A stretch of 26,724 bases of DNA from a virus. The stretch covers positions 1 through 26,724 of IMG/VR virus record IMGVR_UViG_3300042305_001019; one strand, written 5' to 3'. Positions 1,704 to 13,182 of the stretch are shown here, piece after piece (within the stretch, counting starts at the first letter, position 1; each line of letters opens with the position of its first letter). A model generated the notes under the pieces. The model had not been told where the DNA came from and ran no database searches. It was given only the letters and a program-made list of their open reading frames with translations. The translations under genes and the position numbers were made by a program.

Positions 1704-2492
1704 TTAAAGTAGATTAACTAATGACCTCGTTCTGCCACTAGCAAGTTGTGTATAAACCTGAGTTGTTGCCACCGATGAGTGCCTCATTAGATCTCTAACA
1801 GCTAATAGATCACCATTAGATTTCTCAAGCATATTGGTAGCAAAATAATGTCGGCAAGCGTGAAAGGTTTTCTTAGGAATACCTAAGCGCTTCATCTCTT
1901 CAGAACAAAGTTTGGTTAACCTGTTAGGTGTAACTGACCAGATCTTTCCTGGTGTCTCGTGTTTAAGAATAGTCTTAGCGACTATCTCAGCCACTGGTAC
2001 AGATAGGTCTGTTCCGCCCTTACCTGCCACTCTAAGGATGTATCCGTCATCTACCTTCTCAAGGTCTACACCTCGTAGGTTAGCTACCTCCATAGCCCGT
2101 AGGCCCGCTTTACAGCCTATTATAAACCAGTCCCTCATAGGCATATCAGCCTTAGTCATAACTAGTTCAGCCTCACCTGGTGTTAATGGATGAGGTAAAC
2201 CTCTACCCTTACGCACAGCAGGTAAGTCAAGGTCGGCTTGGTTATCTATTACGCCCATCTTACGAAGAGCTTTAAAGATACTACGTACCCTTGCTGCATA
2301 GGTTCCCTTAGTGGAAGCAGCCTTTACGGTCATTACAAGTCGTTGCAGATCTTCAGTCGTAGCCACCTGTGGATGAACTCCTAGGCGCAATATTAGATTG
2401 AAGTCATTTCTAAACAAGGCTTCTGAGAAACCCTGAGTCTCATATCTGTCTCTTAGCTTTTCTTTTATTACTTCAAGTGGTATCTGTTCCAT
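1704..2492 (-). CDS. Tyrosine recombinase (integrase or fibre-gene invertase)
   Basis: The 262-residue protein carries the complete catalytic set of the tyrosine recombinases: R132 in CKAGLRAMEVANL, K158 in AGKGG, H211 and R214 in HACR, H238 in MRHSS and the nucleophile Y247, nine residues after H238. Residues 1-90 form a helical SAM-like core-binding domain. No extra arm-binding domain is visible, so it is shorter than typical actinophage integrases (usually above 320 residues) and closer to Xer or shufflon enzymes. It breaks strands through a Tyr-DNA bond and needs no cofactor. It sits between a tail gene and silent fibre cassettes on the opposite strand, and has its own promoter. Integration into a host chromosome is possible, but I see no repressor, excisionase or attP-like tRNA fragment nearby. 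The enzyme class is secure; inversion of the fibre locus is inferred. Confidence 0.93.
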   Translation of the reverse strand: MEQIPLEVIKEKLRDRYETQGFSEALFRNDFNLILRLGVHPQVATTEDLQRLVMTVKAASTKGTYAARVRSIFKALRKMGVIDNQADLDLPAVRKGRGLPHPLTPGEAELVMTKADMPMRDWFIIGCKAGLRAMEVANLRGVDLEKVDDGYILRVAGKGGTDLSVPVAEIVAKTILKHETPGKIWSVTPNRLTKLCSEEMKRLGIPKKTFHACRHYFATNMLEKSNGDLLAVRDLMRHSSVATTQVYTQLASGRTRSLVNLL

Positions 2493-2503
2493 AGTTCCAG
2501 CAT

Positions 2504-2531
2504 CTTATATTTGGAATTGTTCTGCTGTCAA
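2504..2531 (-). promoter_or_regulatory. Sigma70-like promoter of the recombinase gene
   Basis: Read on the minus strand, TTGACA (2531-2526, perfect -35) is followed after 16 bases by TATAAG (2509-2504, -10). The transcript would start near 2497, about five bases before the ATG at 2492. It would be nearly leaderless, which is common in Actinobacteria, and the start has only a poor ribosome site (GGAAC). The recombinase can therefore be expressed separately from the late operon. Confidence 0.6.
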
Positions 2532-2546
2532 GCACATTCGTCAGCA

Positions 2547-2569
2547 ATTGTGCCGAGGCTTAGCACAAT
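2547..2569. repeat. Inverted repeat with GCACAAT arm, left edge of fibre locus
   Basis: ATTGTGC (2547-2553) and GCACAAT (2563-2569) form a 7-bp stem with a 9-base loop. The same GCACAATC word forms hairpins at 3373-3390 and 5076-5097. Here it stands 17 bases before the left copy of the GTAGCGGATAG core, just as the 3373 hairpin stands before the middle core. It may be the leftover terminator of a lost cassette, or part of a recombination site. There is no clear T-run. Confidence 0.5.
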
Positions 2570-3168
2570 CCCATTGCGTAAGTATCGTAGCGGATAGCGC
2601 CGAAACCACTGGTTTGAAGTGGGCAACACCTGCGGCTGGTGGTATGACCTTAATTTCTGAAACAGTTGCAAGTAGTTTAACAAGTTTAACTCTAGGTTCA
2701 ATACCATCAACCTATAAACAATTGATGTTAATTTGGGCAGGAATACAACATTCAGATAGTTCATCAGGATTTTCTTTAAGAATAAATAACTCCGCAGATG
2801 CCGCTAAATATCCACAACAAGGTTTGCGTTTTGCGGGTAATACACCAACAGTTTCATTGTTTGGTACATCAAATGTTGGATTTGCTTCTCAACAATTATT
2901 TGGTGAAGCAGCAAATAACACAGCCCCCGAATTTGCAAATACAGGTTATGTGTTAATTGATAACTACGCTTCATCCACAAAGGATAAATTTTTTCGCTTT
3001 AATTCTGCCTGGTTTAATAACAGTACAAGTGTTCCTTATGTAGCACAAGGTACTGGTAGATTTGATGATACAACTGCAATAACTTCTTTAGATATATTTA
3101 GAACAAATGGCTCAGGTAATTTTTCAAATCAAACAAATACTTCTATTAGATTGTATGGTATATCATAA
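2548..3168 (+). CDS. Silent headless tail-fibre tip, cassette B
   Basis: This frame is antiparallel to all surrounding late genes. Homology to the expressed fibre starts abruptly at GTA 2587 (VADSAETTGLKWATPA). The 13 residues before it (MCRGLAQSHCVSI) start with TTG inside a hairpin and match nothing in the fibre head. From 2587 the frame gives a 193-residue tip ending GSGNFSNQTNTSIRLYGIS, a type of C-terminal receptor-binding domain I recall from many aquatic phage fibres. It has no head, no ribosome site and no visible promoter. Its stop overlaps the next ATG (TAATG), as the expressed fibre does with its partner. I read it as a stored alternative tip that inversion at the junction would join to the 45-residue head, giving about 238 residues. 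It could also be a fossil. Confidence 0.75.
   Translation: MCRGLAQSHCVSIVADSAETTGLKWATPAAGGMTLISETVASSLTSLTLGSIPSTYKQLMLIWAGIQHSDSSSGFSLRINNSADAAKYPQQGLRFAGNTPTVSLFGTSNVGFASQQLFGEAANNTAPEFANTGYVLIDNYASSTKDKFFRFNSAWFNNSTSVPYVAQGTGRFDDTTAITSLDIFRTNGSGNFSNQTNTSIRLYGIS
2585..2643 (+). repeat. Fibre junction repeat, left copy (cassette B)
   Basis: The 13 bases TCGTAGCGGATAG (2585-2597) match the right copy at 5826-5814 exactly, in inverted orientation. Similarity continues to about 2643 with mostly third-position changes, because both encode VADSAE-TGLKWATPA-GG. Upstream of the core the copies do not align. The sharp left edge is what a crossover site would leave. Confidence 0.75.
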
Positions 3169-3371
3169 TGACTAAACTAATTGTAAATTGCGAAACAGGC
3201 GAGGAAATTTTAAGAGAATTAACTAAGGCTGAAGAAGATCAGCAAAAAATTGATGAGGCAGAAATTGCTACTCAACAAACCAAAGCAGAAGCAAGAGAAG
3301 CCCAACGCCAAGTAATCCTTGATCGCCTAGGGCTAACCTCAGATGAAGCCAGGCTTATTTTAGGCTCCTAG
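3168..3371 (+). CDS. Small fibre-partner protein of cassette B
   Basis: The 67-residue protein starts at an ATG overlapping the stop of the cassette B tip. It begins MTKLIVNCETGEEILRELT, has a charged helical, probably coiled-coil middle (KAEEDQQKIDEAEIATQQTKAEAREAQR) and ends LDRLGLTSDEARLILGS. The partner of the expressed fibre (5351-5100) ends in almost the same motif, LDRLGITEDEARLLLG. Small proteins of this kind often follow fibre genes in aquatic phages and may help fibre assembly or cap the tip. The function is inference. It would move with its tip as one unit if the cassette inverts. It is probably silent in this orientation because no upstream rightward promoter is visible. Confidence 0.7.
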   Translation: MTKLIVNCETGEEILRELTKAEEDQQKIDEAEIATQQTKAEAREAQRQVILDRLGLTSDEARLILGS

Positions 3372-3372
3372 C

Positions 3373-3390
3373 ACAATCCTCTGAGATTGT
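3373..3390. repeat. Hairpin at end of cassette B
   Basis: ACAATC and GATTGT pair around a six-base loop, two bases after the stop of the small cassette B protein. A T-containing stretch (TCTTGAATT) follows. The sequence matches the hairpin at the end of the expressed fibre cassette (GCACAATCCCTC...GATTGTGC on the minus strand), so both cassettes carry the same 3' border. It may be a weak terminator or a cassette boundary. Confidence 0.5.
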
Positions 3391-3405
3391 TCTTGAATTA
3401 GGTTT

Positions 3406-3433
3406 GTAGCGGATAGTGCAGAAACCACTGGGC
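3406..3433 (+). repeat. Fibre junction repeat, middle copy (cassette C)
   Basis: GTAGCGGATAGTGC (3406-3419) is identical to the first 14 bases of the right copy, which is inverted relative to it. It encodes VADSAETTGLK. Similarity to both other copies begins at 3406 and fades after the TGLK codons. A stop, TGA at 3394-3396, lies in frame just upstream, so the reading frame cannot come from further left. Confidence 0.75.
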
Positions 3434-3849
3434 TTAAGTACACCAACGCTCTTTCTGACTTTGTAATCAAAGGCTTTGAAGAAGATGTGAATGTAGTTGG
3501 TTCTGCCGCTACTGGCACTATTAACTTTAATGTGGAAACTGCCTCAATCTGGTATTACACCTCAAATGCTACTGCTAACCACACATTAAATTTTAGATAT
3601 TCAAGTTCTGTTTCATTAAATACCGCTATGGCTACTGGAGATGCAATTACTTTAGTTTGGCTTAATACAAATGGTGCAACGCCTTACTATCCAAACGTTA
3701 TTCAAATTGATGGCAGTACAGTAACTCCTAAAGTTCCTGCTGCTATCTCTGGTGGTAACGCTTCAGCTATTGATGCGTATTCTTTTACAATTATTAAAAC
3801 TGCATCTGCAACATTTACAGTGTTAGAAACACAAACTAAGTTTGCATAA
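3406..3849 (+). CDS. Silent headless tail-fibre tip, cassette C
   Basis: The frame opens after a TGA at 3394. It enters homology at the junction (VADSAETTGLKYTNALSDF) and continues for 147 residues to LETQTKFA. The only possible start is a GTG at 3487 with no good ribosome site, so it is best read as a headless tip. The body (GTINFNVETASIWYYTSNATANHTL and onward) is a beta-rich domain unlike the tips of cassettes A and B. Joined to the head of the expressed gene at VADSAE it would give a fibre of about 192 residues. It leads a three-gene block with a glycine-rich protein and a 116-residue protein that would be co-transcribed after inversion. Confidence 0.7.
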   Translation, partial: VADSAETTGLKYTNALSDFVIKGFEEDVNVVGSAATGTINFNVETASIWYYTSNATANHTLNFRYSSSVSLNTAMATGDAITLVWLNTNGATPYYPNVIQIDGSTVTPKVPAAISGGNASAIDAYSFTIIKTASATFTVLETQTKFA

Positions 3850-3858
3850 GGGGGAACA

Positions 3859-4737
3859 ATGCCTTTAATCGGAACATTAGCCAATTCCTCTGCTAGAGGG
3901 TTTGGTGGATTAAGAAGTTCTGGCCCATCATTATCTGTTGAATATTTAGTAGTTGCAGGTGGTGGCGGCGGCGGTTTTTATATATCAGGTGGTGGCGGTG
4001 CAGGTGGATATAGAACAGATAGTTTAACTATTGCATTATCAACTAATTACACAGTAACTGTTGGTGCAGGCGGTGCAGGTAAGTCTGATTCTGATGGTCC
4101 TGGTGCAAGTGGTTCTAATAGCGTTTTTAGTACTATTACATCCGCAGGTGGTGGTGGTGGTGCAGGTGGTGGTACTAATGGTATTTCAGGCGGTTCTGGC
4201 GGTGGTGGAAGTTATCTTAGCGGTACTGGTGGTGCTGGTAATACACCAACTCAATCTCCATCACAAGGAAATAATGGCGGTAATGGTAGTAGTGCAAATG
4301 GTGGTCCAGCAGGCGGCGGTGGTGGTGCTAGTGCCACAGGTGCAGCAGGTAGTGCTAGTGCTGGTGGTAATGGTGGTGCTGGTTCCAGTTCTTCAATTAC
4401 TGGAAGTAGTGTAACTAGAGCAGGCGGTGGTGGCGGTGGAGCATCAACTCCGACAAGGGGTACTGGCGGTTCTGGTGGTGGCGGTAATGGTGCTAACGAC
4501 TCTAATAATGGTTCAGCCGGAACTGTTAATACTGGCGGTGGTGGCGGTGGTGCTGCAACAGCTGATGTAGTCGCACCTCGCATAAATGGACATAATGGCG
4601 GCTCAGGAACTGTTATTCTAAAATACTCAGATGCTCTTACAGCATCTTTTAGTGGTGTAACACAAACTACTAGCACTTCAGGTGGTTTTAAGGTATCAAT
4701 AATTACAGCAGGCACAGGAACTGTGAGTTGGGCATAA
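3859..4737 (+). CDS. Glycine-rich fibre-tip/adhesin protein
   Basis: This is a 292-residue protein with an ATG preceded by GGGGGA. After a short leader it has the block EYLVVAGGGGGG (from residue 28). Then come about 200 residues of glycine runs separated by short loops rich in Ser, Asn and Thr, and a closing strand region (GSGTVILKYSDA to GTGTVSWA). Glycine-rich domains like this fold as polyglycine-II bundles in phage adhesins such as the gp38 type, where the loops touch the receptor. It is part of silent cassette C, nine bases after the cassette C tip, and its stop overlaps the next start. The long low-complexity track would be prone to slippage and recombination, which suits a variable receptor binder. 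The adhesin role is family knowledge plus inference. Confidence 0.75.
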   Translation: MPLIGTLANSSARGFGGLRSSGPSLSVEYLVVAGGGGGGFYISGGGGAGGYRTDSLTIALSTNYTVTVGAGGAGKSDSDGPGASGSNSVFSTITSAGGGGGAGGGTNGISGGSGGGGSYLSGTGGAGNTPTQSPSQGNNGGNGSSANGGPAGGGGGASATGAAGSASAGGNGGAGSSSSITGSSVTRAGGGGGGASTPTRGTGGSGGGGNGANDSNNGSAGTVNTGGGGGGAATADVVAPRINGHNGGSGTVILKYSDALTASFSGVTQTTSTSGGFKVSIITAGTGTVSWA

Positions 4738-5087
4738 TGGCACATTACGCATTTTTAGATGAAAATAATATCGTTACCGAAGTTATAGTAGGTATTGATG
4801 AAACTGAATTAATTCAAGGAATAAATCCTGAAACTTGGTATGGTAATTTTAGAGGTCAAGTATGTAAAAGGACTTCCTATAATAATAAAATAAGAAAACA
4901 ATACGCAGGCATTGGTTACAAATATGATCCAAATGCAGATGTATTTATAGCACCACAACCTTATCCATCTTGGTCGCTAGATAATAACTTTGATTGGCAA
5001 GCTCCAACACCTAGACCTATTGAAGGTTTTTGGCGTTGGGATGAAGTAACCCTTACCTGGGTTGAATCTAACTTAGCACAATCTTGA
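4737..5087 (+). CDS. Conserved small tail-fibre-associated protein
   Basis: The 116-residue protein starts at the ATG that overlaps the previous stop (TAATG). It begins MAHYAFLDENNIVTEVIVG and contains CKRTSYNNKIRKQYAGIGYKYD, then PYPSWSLDNNFDWQAP and a Trp-rich end. I recall this family from many cyanophages and other marine phages, usually beside tail-fibre genes. Its role is unknown, perhaps a structural or fibre-end protein. It closes cassette C, and its stop falls inside the loop of the hairpin at 5076-5097, where it meets the expressed cassette tail to tail. It is probably silent in the present orientation. Confidence 0.75.
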   Translation: MAHYAFLDENNIVTEVIVGIDETELIQGINPETWYGNFRGQVCKRTSYNNKIRKQYAGIGYKYDPNADVFIAPQPYPSWSLDNNFDWQAPTPRPIEGFWRWDEVTLTWVESNLAQS

Positions 5088-5097
5088 GGGATTGTGC
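5076..5097. terminator. Perfect hairpin between convergent fibre cassettes
   Basis: GCACAATC (5076-5083), a six-base loop and GATTGTGC (5090-5097) form an uninterrupted 8-bp stem between two convergent genes. It could end transcripts from both sides, although neither side has a long T-run. It shares the GCACAATC word with the hairpins at 2547-2569 and 3373-3390, so it is also a cassette border. Confidence 0.5.
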
Positions 5098-5099
5098 CG

Positions 5100-5351
5100 T
5101 TAGCCTAGAAGTAGCCTTGCCTCATCCTCTGTAATACCAAGCCGATCAAGTAGGGCTGCTTTTTCAGCAGCCTTGGTTGTTGCCTCAGTTATCTCATCTG
5201 CCTTTACCTGCTCTATTGCATTATCAACTTCGGCTTGAGTAGGTGCATCACCATCTAATACATCCCATTTAATTGTAGAGTAATCATTTTCTTGAAATGA
5301 AAACTCAGCAGTTGGCTTTAATTTTTTAATTGCTTTGACTAAGTAACTCAT
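5100..5351 (-). CDS. Small fibre-partner protein of expressed cassette A
   Basis: This 83-residue protein has an ATG overlapping the stop of the expressed fibre gene by one base. It starts MSYLVKAIKKLKPTAEFSF, has a central segment about queries and aspartates (TIKWDVLDGDAPTQAEVDNAIEQV), then an Ala/Glu helix and the end LDRLGITEDEARLLLG. That end is shared with the cassette B partner (3168-3371), while the N-terminal halves differ. This suggests that the C-terminal part does a common job, such as fibre assembly, and the N-terminal part is matched to the tip. The function is not established. A perfect hairpin follows its stop. Confidence 0.75.
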   Translation of the reverse strand: MSYLVKAIKKLKPTAEFSFQENDYSTIKWDVLDGDAPTQAEVDNAIEQVKADEITEATTKAAEKAALLDRLGITEDEARLLLG

Positions 5352-5959
5352 TATGCACCTATTTCTAAAAGTGTAATTGTGCTTAAACCAACATTATGTG
5401 TTGAAGAGCGACTGTCAGCAGTTGAGTTCATTCTGGCTTGAATTTTGTATGTTGTTGCCGACGTGGTATTAGGTGAATCTAAATAAACAATTGGTATATT
5501 ATTTAATGATTCAATTGCTCTTACTCCAAATGATTGACTTGAATCTCCTTGAGTATAAATAGTTGTTCCTGATCTCAATAATCTTAAAGCACAGGCAGTA
5601 GTTACCGCAGTTGCTGCCTCAACGTAAGAACTTTGGGTAGCAAGAATTAATACTTTACTTGTTGCAGAGGTAGGCGTAATTGCTAAAGATAATCCTGTAT
5701 CGGTAAAAGTCAATGATGCTATGGTTGTATCAACATCATAAGTACCATAAACAACCTGTAAAACTTTTCCACCACCTGCTGGCGTAGCCCACTTTAAGCC
5801 TGTTGCTTCCGCACTATCCGCTACGAGTGTGGTGCCATTTGCGCCTACTGCTAGACGTGCAGGGGCATCACTACCAGTAGCTGTGATGATGTCACCTTTA
5901 GCATCTACGATAGATTCAGGGATACCAGTCCCTGGTTCTGGTATTCTTCCTATTGCCAT
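5351..5959 (-). CDS. Expressed tail-fibre/receptor-binding protein, cassette A
   Basis: I chose the ATG at 5959 (MAIGRIPEPGTGIPES) because a GGAG site lies 11 bases upstream and the previous gene ends two bases before. An upstream in-frame extension to 6052 would overlap that gene and has no family resemblance. The product is 202 residues. Residues 1-45 are a head with SIVDAKGDIITATGSDAPAR and LAVGANGTTL, a motif common in aquatic phage fibres that probably anchors to the tail. Residues 46-65 are the junction VADSAEATGLKWATPAGG. The rest is a beta-rich tip ending HNVGLSTITLLEIGA. The protein probably forms a trimeric fibre that contacts the host surface. It is the only fibre in the window with a head and a start. 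Confidence 0.82.
   Translation of the reverse strand: MAIGRIPEPGTGIPESIVDAKGDIITATGSDAPARLAVGANGTTLVADSAEATGLKWATPAGGGKVLQVVYGTYDVDTTIASLTFTDTGLSLAITPTSATSKVLILATQSSYVEAATAVTTACALRLLRSGTTIYTQGDSSQSFGVRAIESLNNIPIVYLDSPNTTSATTYKIQARMNSTADSRSSTHNVGLSTITLLEIGA
5768..5826 (-). repeat. Fibre junction repeat, right copy (expressed gene)
   Basis: On the minus strand TCGTAGCGGATAG (5826-5814) begins a stretch encoding VADSAEATGLKWATPAGG. It is inverted relative to the left (2585) and middle (3406) copies. Exchange here with the left copy would flip about 3.2 kb, and with the middle copy about 2.4 kb. Both would keep the reading frame. Confidence 0.75.
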
Positions 5960-5960
5960 A

Positions 5961-6290
5961 TTATGATAGCTCCGTTCCAAAGGCATTGAATGTGAAATCA
6001 GCAGTAGATGCGTATACAGATAGAACATCTGTCGCAGCCAATGTGATTCCAAGAGTCATAGTATCTGTAGAGTTCGCTGAGAGCGAAGCATCGTAGATTA
6101 GATATTGAGCATTGGCAATAGAGGCACCAGCCACTCTTACTGCTATGCGATATGTACCAGCACTTGCTGCCCGATTAGCTACAGTAATCGTAGATACAAT
6201 CGTTGATGTGGCAGAAGGAACTGTGTACAAAGTTGTTAAAGATGTTGCTGACGGGGCAGATTGCCCCAGTACCTTGTATGTTGTTGCCAT
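5961..6290 (-). CDS. Small beta-rich virion protein
   Basis: The 109-residue protein starts at ATG 6290 with GGGAG upstream. It begins MATTYKVLGQSAPSATSLTTLYTVPSATSTIVSTITVANR and continues as alternating beta strands with many Thr, Ser and Ala, without charged clusters or membrane segments. Proteins of this type are common just before fibre genes in aquatic and actinobacterial phages and look like single beta-sandwich domains. A role as a fibre collar, decoration or base protein is plausible but not shown. It ends one base before the start of the expressed fibre gene, so the two are probably translated from one message. Confidence 0.65.
   Translation of the reverse strand: MATTYKVLGQSAPSATSLTTLYTVPSATSTIVSTITVANRAASAGTYRIAVRVAGASIANAQYLIYDASLSANSTDTMTLGITLAATDVLSVYASTADFTFNAFGTELS

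Positions 6291-7567: not shown

Positions 7568-7584
<17 letters not shown>
6682..7584 (-). CDS. Head-tail adaptor / tail tubular protein A-like
   Basis: This 300-residue protein starts MSTLGEMVDEIKSNLQGYTL with a helical N-terminus. A beta module follows (IIEVDDELIFIDSFDKATNTL, GFGRGYQGTVPAPH), then PRTAIKKAINDTINSLYPNLWAV and LPDDVEDVLYVSW. The helix AIKKAINDTINSLYP and strand YALPDDVEDV are typical of adaptor or tail-tubular-A-like proteins that bind below the portal in short-tailed phages, as I remember them. The C-terminal third is helical (YIFALYQQRLNEEALKLKDKYP). It begins 17 bases inside the end of the glycosyltransferase gene, with AAGG upstream, so the two are translationally linked. 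The assignment is a reasoned guess; a general tail structural protein is the fallback. Confidence 0.6.
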
Positions 7585-9919
<2,335 letters not shown>

Positions 9920-12003: not shown

Positions 12004-13182
12004 TTAACCGTTTGTTGCTGCAGACTCAATACGAATCAGTGCTGCTTCGCGTAGGCGGTTAAAGCCTCCGAAGTAGTACCAACCGATTGTGCGGAAACGG
12101 CGTAGAGCATCAATCTCTGGACCAATGATGGTTGAGATGTCTGCGGCTTGCGCCTCAGCTAATGCTTCACGACCTGCAATAATTGCACGGTAGTTGTTTG
12201 TAAATGTCACAGTACCAGTTGCTGCTGCTGATGAAACATCAGCATTAGTCTTGGCATATGAGAAGGTTGTTGTTGTACCAACTACAGTAATGGTGTAAGT
12301 ACCATTAAATACAGAGTCAACACCTGAAACAGTTACAACCTGTCCAACGCCTAGGCCGTGAGCCACAGCAGTTGTTAGAGTTGCAACGTTAGATGTTAAC
12401 GCCTTGTTGGTTACGGAAACAGTTGTTCCGATACCTGCGGCTAGATTTAAGCCGTTAAGTACACGAGGTGTCTCTACTACGAAAGCACCTTCTAATACAC
12501 CAACTGCACCAGCAGTAAACGGTGTACGCTCTACATACTTAGTCAAATCTTGGAATCCTCCGGTGCCTGATTCGGCGCGAAGGTCAGCAGATTGACGTGG
12601 GTGTAGATATGCAGCATATAGCTCACCGATACGAGGCAAAGCCTTGTTGGTGCGTAGAGTTACTACAGCGTTGCGGATATCCGCAGTTGTAATTGTATCT
12701 ACTGGAAGCACTGCACTAGATGCTGTTGGAACTGTTCCTGATGGACCATTTGCATAAATTACATTGGTACCGGCACAAAGAACTTGACCAACAACATTGT
12801 CAATGCTGTCTGCTGCGTTGTAAGCGATGATATCAGCAAGTGCTGCATCTACATCGTTAAATGAAGTTAGGTTTAACTTCTTAGTTGTTGAAACGGCTGA
12901 GCCGTATTCAGCAAGGGTTACAGTAACCTGTGATGGGTTACCTAGAGCAATTGAGGAAACGTCAGATGATTCTGTCAACGTAGATGTAGCTTGTGCTAAA
13001 TCTGAATAGATTGAGAATACAACTGATGATCCTGGCATTGCCTGTTGAACTGGTTTAACATCGGCAAGTGAGCGCATAACAGGAATGGAACGAAGTGCCA
13101 TTCTTACATACTGATCGTATGCTGCTGTGACTAAATTGCTAATGCTGGATGTAGTAGTTAAACTACCGCCTGGGGTTGCCAT
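12004..13182 (-). CDS. Major capsid protein, N4-gp56-like, with inserted beta domain
   Basis: The 392-residue protein resembles the N4-gp56 family of HK97-fold capsid proteins: YDQYVRMALRSIPVMRSLAD (22-41), then AMPGSSVVFSIYSDLAQATSTLTE (48-71), a middle helix-strand region around residues 110-240, and the end IIGPEIDALRRFRTIGWYYFGG. It builds the icosahedral shell. Residues 255-327 hold an extra module (KALTSNVATLTTAVAHGLGV, VVTVSGVDSVFNGTYTIT and a closing strand). I know this as a separate beta domain of actinophage proteins, here set into the capsid chain between TTVSVT and TFTNNYRA. It may decorate the shell surface. The gene follows the scaffold, has AAAGG upstream and is followed by a hairpin. 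Confidence 0.88.
   Translation of the reverse strand: MATPGGSLTTTSSISNLVTAAYDQYVRMALRSIPVMRSLADVKPVQQAMPGSSVVFSIYSDLAQATSTLTESSDVSSIALGNPSQVTVTLAEYGSAVSTTKKLNLTSFNDVDAALADIIAYNAADSIDNVVGQVLCAGTNVIYANGPSGTVPTASSAVLPVDTITTADIRNAVVTLRTNKALPRIGELYAAYLHPRQSADLRAESGTGGFQDLTKYVERTPFTAGAVGVLEGAFVVETPRVLNGLNLAAGIGTTVSVTNKALTSNVATLTTAVAHGLGVGQVVTVSGVDSVFNGTYTITVVGTTTTFSYAKTNADVSSAAATGTVTFTNNYRAIIAGREALAEAQAADISTIIGPEIDALRRFRTIGWYYFGGFNRLREAALIRIESAATNG

Follow-up and report, generated by a model that had tools for sequence, protein, structure and literature searches.

A putative tail-tip shufflon with an armless Xer-like tyrosine recombinase in a virus related to lytic Planktophila phages

We analyzed a stretch of DNA of 26,724 nucleotides from a freshwater bacterial virus (IMG/VR record IMGVR_UViG_3300042305_001019, positions 1 to 26,724; hereafter the window), in which a tail fibre gene, two silent alternative fibre tips and a tyrosine recombinase gene lie together. 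This locus is very probably a tail-tip shufflon, run by an armless Xer-like tyrosine recombinase that inverts DNA at a short core sequence, and a change of binding target on the host is probably within reach of the viruses that carry it. In the proposed mechanism, the recombinase would act on inverted copies of the core (consensus TYGTAGCGGAT), whose codons for V-A-D would sit in a flexible linker that joins the constant fibre head to the receptor-binding tip. Inversion between the core at the head and either silent core would place a new tip and its accessory genes under the start and expression signals of the head, giving head-A, head-B or head-C. The principal features are as follows.

1704..2492, minus strand: tyrosine recombinase, complete, 262 aa, with a core-binding and a catalytic domain
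2587..2597, plus strand: left core GTAGCGGATAG, opens silent tip B; the core nearest to the recombinase, at 95 bp from the recombinase ATG
2587..3168, plus strand: silent tip B frame, 193 aa from the core
3406..3416, plus strand: middle core GTAGCGGATAG, start of silent tip C
3406..3849, plus strand: silent tip C frame, 147 aa from the core; phrog_5906
5354..5824, minus strand: active tip A, 157 aa open from the core
5814..5824, minus strand: right core GTAGCGGATAG, within the fibre gene that is expressed; VADS forms residues 46-49, in a low-confidence linker
5825..5959, minus strand: constant fibre head, 45 aa, ATG at 5959, ending in GANGTTL and in frame into the core (...GANGTTL|VADS)

An earlier note on this DNA had described three in-frame cores encoding VADS, one of them inverted, and this description is exact: GTAGCGGATAG occurs three times in the window, at 2587-2597 (+), 3406-3416 (+) and 5814-5824 (-), and no further copy was found anywhere in the window with one mismatch allowed. 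The chance expectation is 0.19 copies, and none of 100 shuffles gave three. The predicted inversions span 3238 bp (outer cores) and 2419 bp (right and middle cores), in agreement with the 3.2 and 2.4 kb estimated before. The view of an expressed head and tip A facing two headless tips also holds, except that tip B, headless as it is, is not strictly start-less, given a TTG in frame at 2548. Homologues of tip B (40-45% identical) are head-linked in L389, L043, L083 and L087 (L numbers denote related loci and their contigs), an ending of the GANGTTL kind is also found at head-linked sites in relatives, and a silent tip in L024 is 83% identical to tip C. Similarity continues past the core for 58 bp at 79% (2585-2642 versus 5769-5826) and for 34 bp at 79% in a second comparison, because the peptide VADSAExTGLK(W) is common to tips A, B and C.

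Evidence for inversion comes from the occurrence of the same cassette in both states. Five distinct cassettes occur twice at an identity of at least 95%: one contig has the cassette joined to the head, and another has it silent and inverted. From the first base of GTAGCGGAT onward the two copies agree, and whatever precedes this base is unrelated. The cleanest pair is L077/L308, with a cassette of 732 bp at 100% identity in opposite states, a recombinase flank 97.4% identical over 3660 bp and a head 91% identical. Tips in opposite states are also carried by L146/L147 (529 bp, 100%), L382/L012 (97% over 348 bp), L337/L336 (96.6% over 876 bp) and L327/L043 (96.8% over 680 bp). L012 and L017 both have a window-type backbone, and their recombinase genes are 97.6% identical, yet a cassette junction that is homologous between them (88.6% over 553 bp) points in opposite directions in the two. 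Replacement is visible in L053 and L054, where the recombinase and leader are 100% identical and the silent tips are unrelated immediately past the core. The earlier note had looked to related contigs for reordered cassettes, and among the relatives the same cassettes do appear in either state and either orientation, the breakpoints falling at the core. Being genome-to-genome comparisons, these pairs attest past events of inversion and replacement at the core, as opposed to their rate.

The arrangement of relatives follows a consistent rule. The recombinase was used to search viral contigs, which yielded 80 loci, and in these the region preceding the recombinase was read; together with loci from further scans, and after removal of duplicates, this gave 37 complete loci. 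Their general order is head and tip, then zero to two silent tips, then the recombinase. Sixteen of the 37, the window included, have a head-linked core and two inverted silent tips (H+s-s-), 14 have a single inverted silent tip (H+s-), five have the (+,+,-) layout H+s+s- (L017, L020/L396, L024/L163, L034/L090 and L308) and two have no silent tip (H+). In all loci that have a silent tip (35/35), the one closest to the recombinase is inverted with respect to the head; usually, its core is found 57-123 bp upstream of the recombinase ATG. L148 is an exception to this spacing, its sole recognised core being at -827. The (+,+,-) layout corresponds to the product of one outer-core inversion starting from (+,-,-), and in L034 and L308 the mirrored spacing lands near the common one. 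The direct repeats of the (+,+,-) state should permit deletion as well, which fits the loci with one or no silent tip; the authors of the Rin system raise the question of how deletion is restrained for their own armless enzyme (PMC6109161).

These layouts also bear on the scarcely credible explanation that the locus is an assembly artefact, in which tips of other phages were joined at a common 11-mer. The cores are indeed short and identical and the contigs derive from metagenomes, but the same layout recurs in dozens of contigs from different samples, and several layouts are identical in independent samples (L079/L080/L081, L028/L029, L046/L048). Moreover, the k-mers usually employed by assemblers are longer than the 11-bp word.

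Judged by its codons, the core is a DNA element and not a mere peptide. A T at position -2 is common to head-linked and silent sites as well, which gives the consensus TYGTAGCGGAT. When sites in recombinase loci were collected with a protein motif that left the codons free, 94 of the 103 used GTAGCGGAT, five GTAGCGAAT and four GTCGCGGAT. Adjacent conserved residues use most of their codons (e.g., Gly, 1.96 of 2 bits of synonymous entropy), in a table that derives from core-selected sites and is informative for neighbouring codons only. This synonymous freeze at GTA GCG GAT, with free neighbours, is not explained by homologous recombination, and neither are the always-inverted proximal core beside the recombinase and an identity that begins at a core base behind unrelated sequence. 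All three count against a rival account, namely that the enzyme is a prophage integrase with an attP site beside the tips and that tips are exchanged only by homologous recombination at the stretch coding for VADSAExTGLKW. In its favor, the homologous stretch beyond the core could support recombination, core and tips also occur in phages without a recombinase, Pfam and PHROGs both assign the integrase label, and the closest cultured matches are Gordonia and Mycobacterium integrases, at 27-33% identity. Against it, no prophage relative above 32% identity was found when 84,980 species genomes of bacteria and archaea were searched, a scan for tRNA genes in the window gave none, and the cultured lytic Planktophila phages E7 and F5 (OX376640, OX376641; PMC10202952), with which the window backbone is syntenic, have no PF00589 protein in their genomes. 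We therefore regard the integrase account as very unlikely.

The recombinase itself matches Pfam Phage_integrase (1.9e-12), with XerC-like proteins and XerD as its best solved relatives. Residues R132, K158, H211, R214, H238 and Y247 of the catalytic site are unchanged across 14 aligned recombinase sequences and stay conserved in recombinases on different backbones. In the AlphaFold model a four-helix N-terminal domain (residues 6-78) is followed by the catalytic part, with no arm-binding domain; the catalytic half has low confidence (mean predicted local distance difference test, pLDDT, score 61.5), so that no fold claim is drawn from that half. A second PF00589 protein was not found in the contigs of twelve relatives, which are possibly fragments. 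As this result agrees with the lack of close relatives in species genomes and of an integrase in E7 and F5, a role of the recombinase in lysogeny is unlikely. The enzyme occupies the tail-tip slot in every locus read; the window-type downstream gene adjoins it in 35 of the 75 loci with room and other genes do so in the remainder, and the loci include one clearly different backbone. We infer that this recombinase catalyzes the inversions, that switching would take place within a population and that host binding would be altered as a result. The earlier note had assigned a complete enzyme with its own promoter. The former is borne out, whereas for the latter a promoter-like sequence is seen but the number of promoters in the consensus scan did not exceed the shuffle expectation.

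2502..2531, minus strand: putative recombinase promoter TTGACA-18-TAAGAT, from the consensus scan; the TTGACA-like stretch is retained in many close relatives

In L021, L038, L066, L069 and L073, a related recombinase occupies the same tail slot immediately behind tip genes that are complete, and no silent tip can be recognised.

Another possibility is that the recombinase acts on the cores mainly for intermolecular gain and loss of cassettes, by integron-like capture of circular cassettes, with the inverted order as a by-product. The variable number of silent tips, including recombinase loci without any, and the unrelated tips on the same backbone agree with this, as do cassettes that are 95-97% identical on different backbones (head-linked in L382 and L405 and silent in L012; head-linked in L327 and silent in L043). 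However, the invariant inversion of the proximal tip fits a switch, and cassettes could also spread by homologous recombination; we consider it unlikely that gain and loss is the main function. A combined picture can be proposed tentatively, in which recombinase and codon-locked core act across genomes, so that freshwater actinophages of unrelated backbones, also those without a recombinase, might trade cassettes at one joint and then switch stored tips by inversion. The common core offers a handle on tip movement between phage lineages.

Several observations weigh against a tail-tip shufflon. No contig pair carries an identical full tip set in two arrangements, and the observed swaps also include cassette replacement. 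Among the viral contigs there is no near-identical opposite-state copy of the window's own tips, the best amino acid identities being 57% for B, 89% for C and 51% for A. The inversion mechanism put forward in the earlier note is supported by the both-state cassettes of relatives, but in no relative is the head of the window joined to tip B or tip C of the window. The relatives that have a recombinase in the slot and lack silent tips or core (L021, L038, L066, L069) are left unexplained by the switch model alone. Contig ends fall within 3 kb of the cassette for 34/68 left and 32/68 right ends, which is not significant, and contig-end enrichment was rejected as a sign of mixed populations. Finally, 33 of the 42 motif sites in contigs without the recombinase keep the same codons, and the idea that the codon lock proves the core to be exclusive to recombinase phages was rejected for this reason. 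Some of these contigs may end before the enzyme; others (L252, L265, L312, L158 and L405) continue for kilobases.

These five contigs have the same core and tip type with several kb downstream and no recombinase, and represent fixed-tip users of the joint.

The part that would be swapped was modeled for the head with tip A (mean pLDDT 79, above 90 across most of residues 70-200). The model resembles TNF-like lectins, namely Photorhabdus PLTL (9ib7; E 2.7e-6, template modeling score 0.78 by target length) and Burkholderia BC2L-C, with the lectin jelly roll predicted for fibre residues of about 65-200 and the VADS junction as a low-confidence linker preceding the lectin domain. Because of this match, tip A is a probable sugar-binding receptor module. 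For phages related to those of the Nanopelagicales, a heritable tip switch would be a concrete means of keeping pace with surface sugars as they change, with no need of lysogeny. The switch lends itself to direct testing, as lytic relatives and a host strain have been cultured and extensive read sets are available.

As a correction to the earlier note, every tip cassette of the window contains at least one accessory gene, and in relatives small genes like the 67-aa gene of cassette B also come after tips.

3168..3371, plus strand: accessory gene of cassette B, 67 aa, ...LDRLGLTSDEARLILGS
3859..4737, plus strand: Gly-rich protein of cassette C, 292 aa; Pfam Gly_rich_2, 2.4e-21; phrog_2295
4728..5087, plus strand: 119-aa gene of cassette C; phrog_7759, 1.3e-34
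5100..5351, minus strand: accessory gene of active cassette A, 83 aa; weak XkdW-like match, E 0.006

The earlier note had overlooked a second DNA element, the palindrome ACAATC-N5-GATTGT at 3371 and 5076. In the form [CA]ACAATC-N5-GATTGT[GT] it is confined to the 4 kb ahead of the recombinase, where copies are numerous and lie at the ends of cassettes and directly in front of the recombinase gene; a further 486 kb of the same loci have none. It may be a terminator hairpin or an accessory site of the recombinase.

3371..3391: palindrome GCACAATC-N5-GATTGTT, at the junction of cassettes B and C
5076..5096: palindrome GCACAATC-N5-GATTGTG, where the ends of cassettes C and A converge; hairpin z -3.8 on the minus strand

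The window is 46.5% identical to E7 and F5 in terL, about 50% in the portal, 42% in the major capsid protein, 62.5% in the gene at 5961 and 36-47% in the downstream gene. In E7 and F5 the same slot is filled by several complete, independent tip genes, without core or recombinase. For these phages, a variable island of 5 kb that takes in part of the tail fibre has been described, and the high microdiversity of the Nanopelagicales, abundant freshwater bacteria, has been attributed to phage predation (PMC10202952). Backbone kinship would tie the host of the window phage to the Nanopelagicales. Elsewhere in the window, a 41-residue stretch of the major head protein (12004-13182, residues of about 256-296) is 58% identical to E7 29634-29756, which lies in the region matching the window gene at 1-1695, indicating a domain common to the head protein and a tail-end gene. 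An Rfam scan of the window gave no match. The window also encodes a collagen-like tail fibre protein with Gly-x-y repeats (8641-9582, 313 aa) and, between tail genes, a predicted glycosyltransferase (7568-8626; phrog_13126, 1.7e-143).

A phage-borne multi-tip system with a tyrosine recombinase had been regarded as unusual in the earlier note. This rarity is not upheld, as the kind of system is already known from the Rin shufflon of Bifidobacterium dnaJ2 prophages (PMC6109161) and of Eggerthella lenta clade 1 prophages (PMC8778435), in which inversions were documented between genomes and in reads, and from the invertase of phiCh1 (PMC8651126). In Rin an armless XerD-like tyrosine recombinase lies beside a constant N-terminus of the receptor-binding protein (RBP) and several headless C-termini, a short asymmetric site (the 11-bp rix; 8 bp in Eggerthella) precedes each tip, inversions occur at this site between genomes, and the hosts are actinobacterial. 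Here, too, an armless phage-encoded tyrosine recombinase adjoins the tips, with a constant N-terminus and headless C-termini, an asymmetric repeat and inversions between genomes; likened by architecture and not by protein homology, the system of the window would work like Rin. The differences are several. The rix sequence TTCCCTAACCC differs from the TYGTAGCGGAT core and is absent from the window. Rin phages are prophages with a separate integrase, whereas the window has a lytic-type backbone in which no other integrase was found. In Rin a second rix follows the RBP gene, while here the palindrome takes its place at cassette ends; in addition, the cassettes here carry accessory genes, and module and cassettes are spread over several backbones.

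By description, the system also resembles that of phiCh1, a haloarchaeal member of the Vertoviridae with a virus-encoded site-specific recombinase that inverts a tail-fibre module and is discussed among tyrosine recombinases (PMC8651126); phiCh1 differs in being an archaeal virus. The Gin, Cin and Min systems (Mu, P1 and p15B) share the constant fibre head, the inverted alternative tips and the recombinase alongside, but employ serine recombinases. In the S-U region of Mu, small accessory genes flip together with the tip, like those in the cassettes described here. The R64 shufflon (Rci) likewise combines multi-cassette C-terminal switching with a tyrosine recombinase and an asymmetric site, although, likened by description, it acts on a plasmid pilus adhesin and not on a phage fibre. 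New among these systems are the lytic-type freshwater lineage, the codon-locked core, the presence on several backbones and cassettes that are common to unrelated phages.

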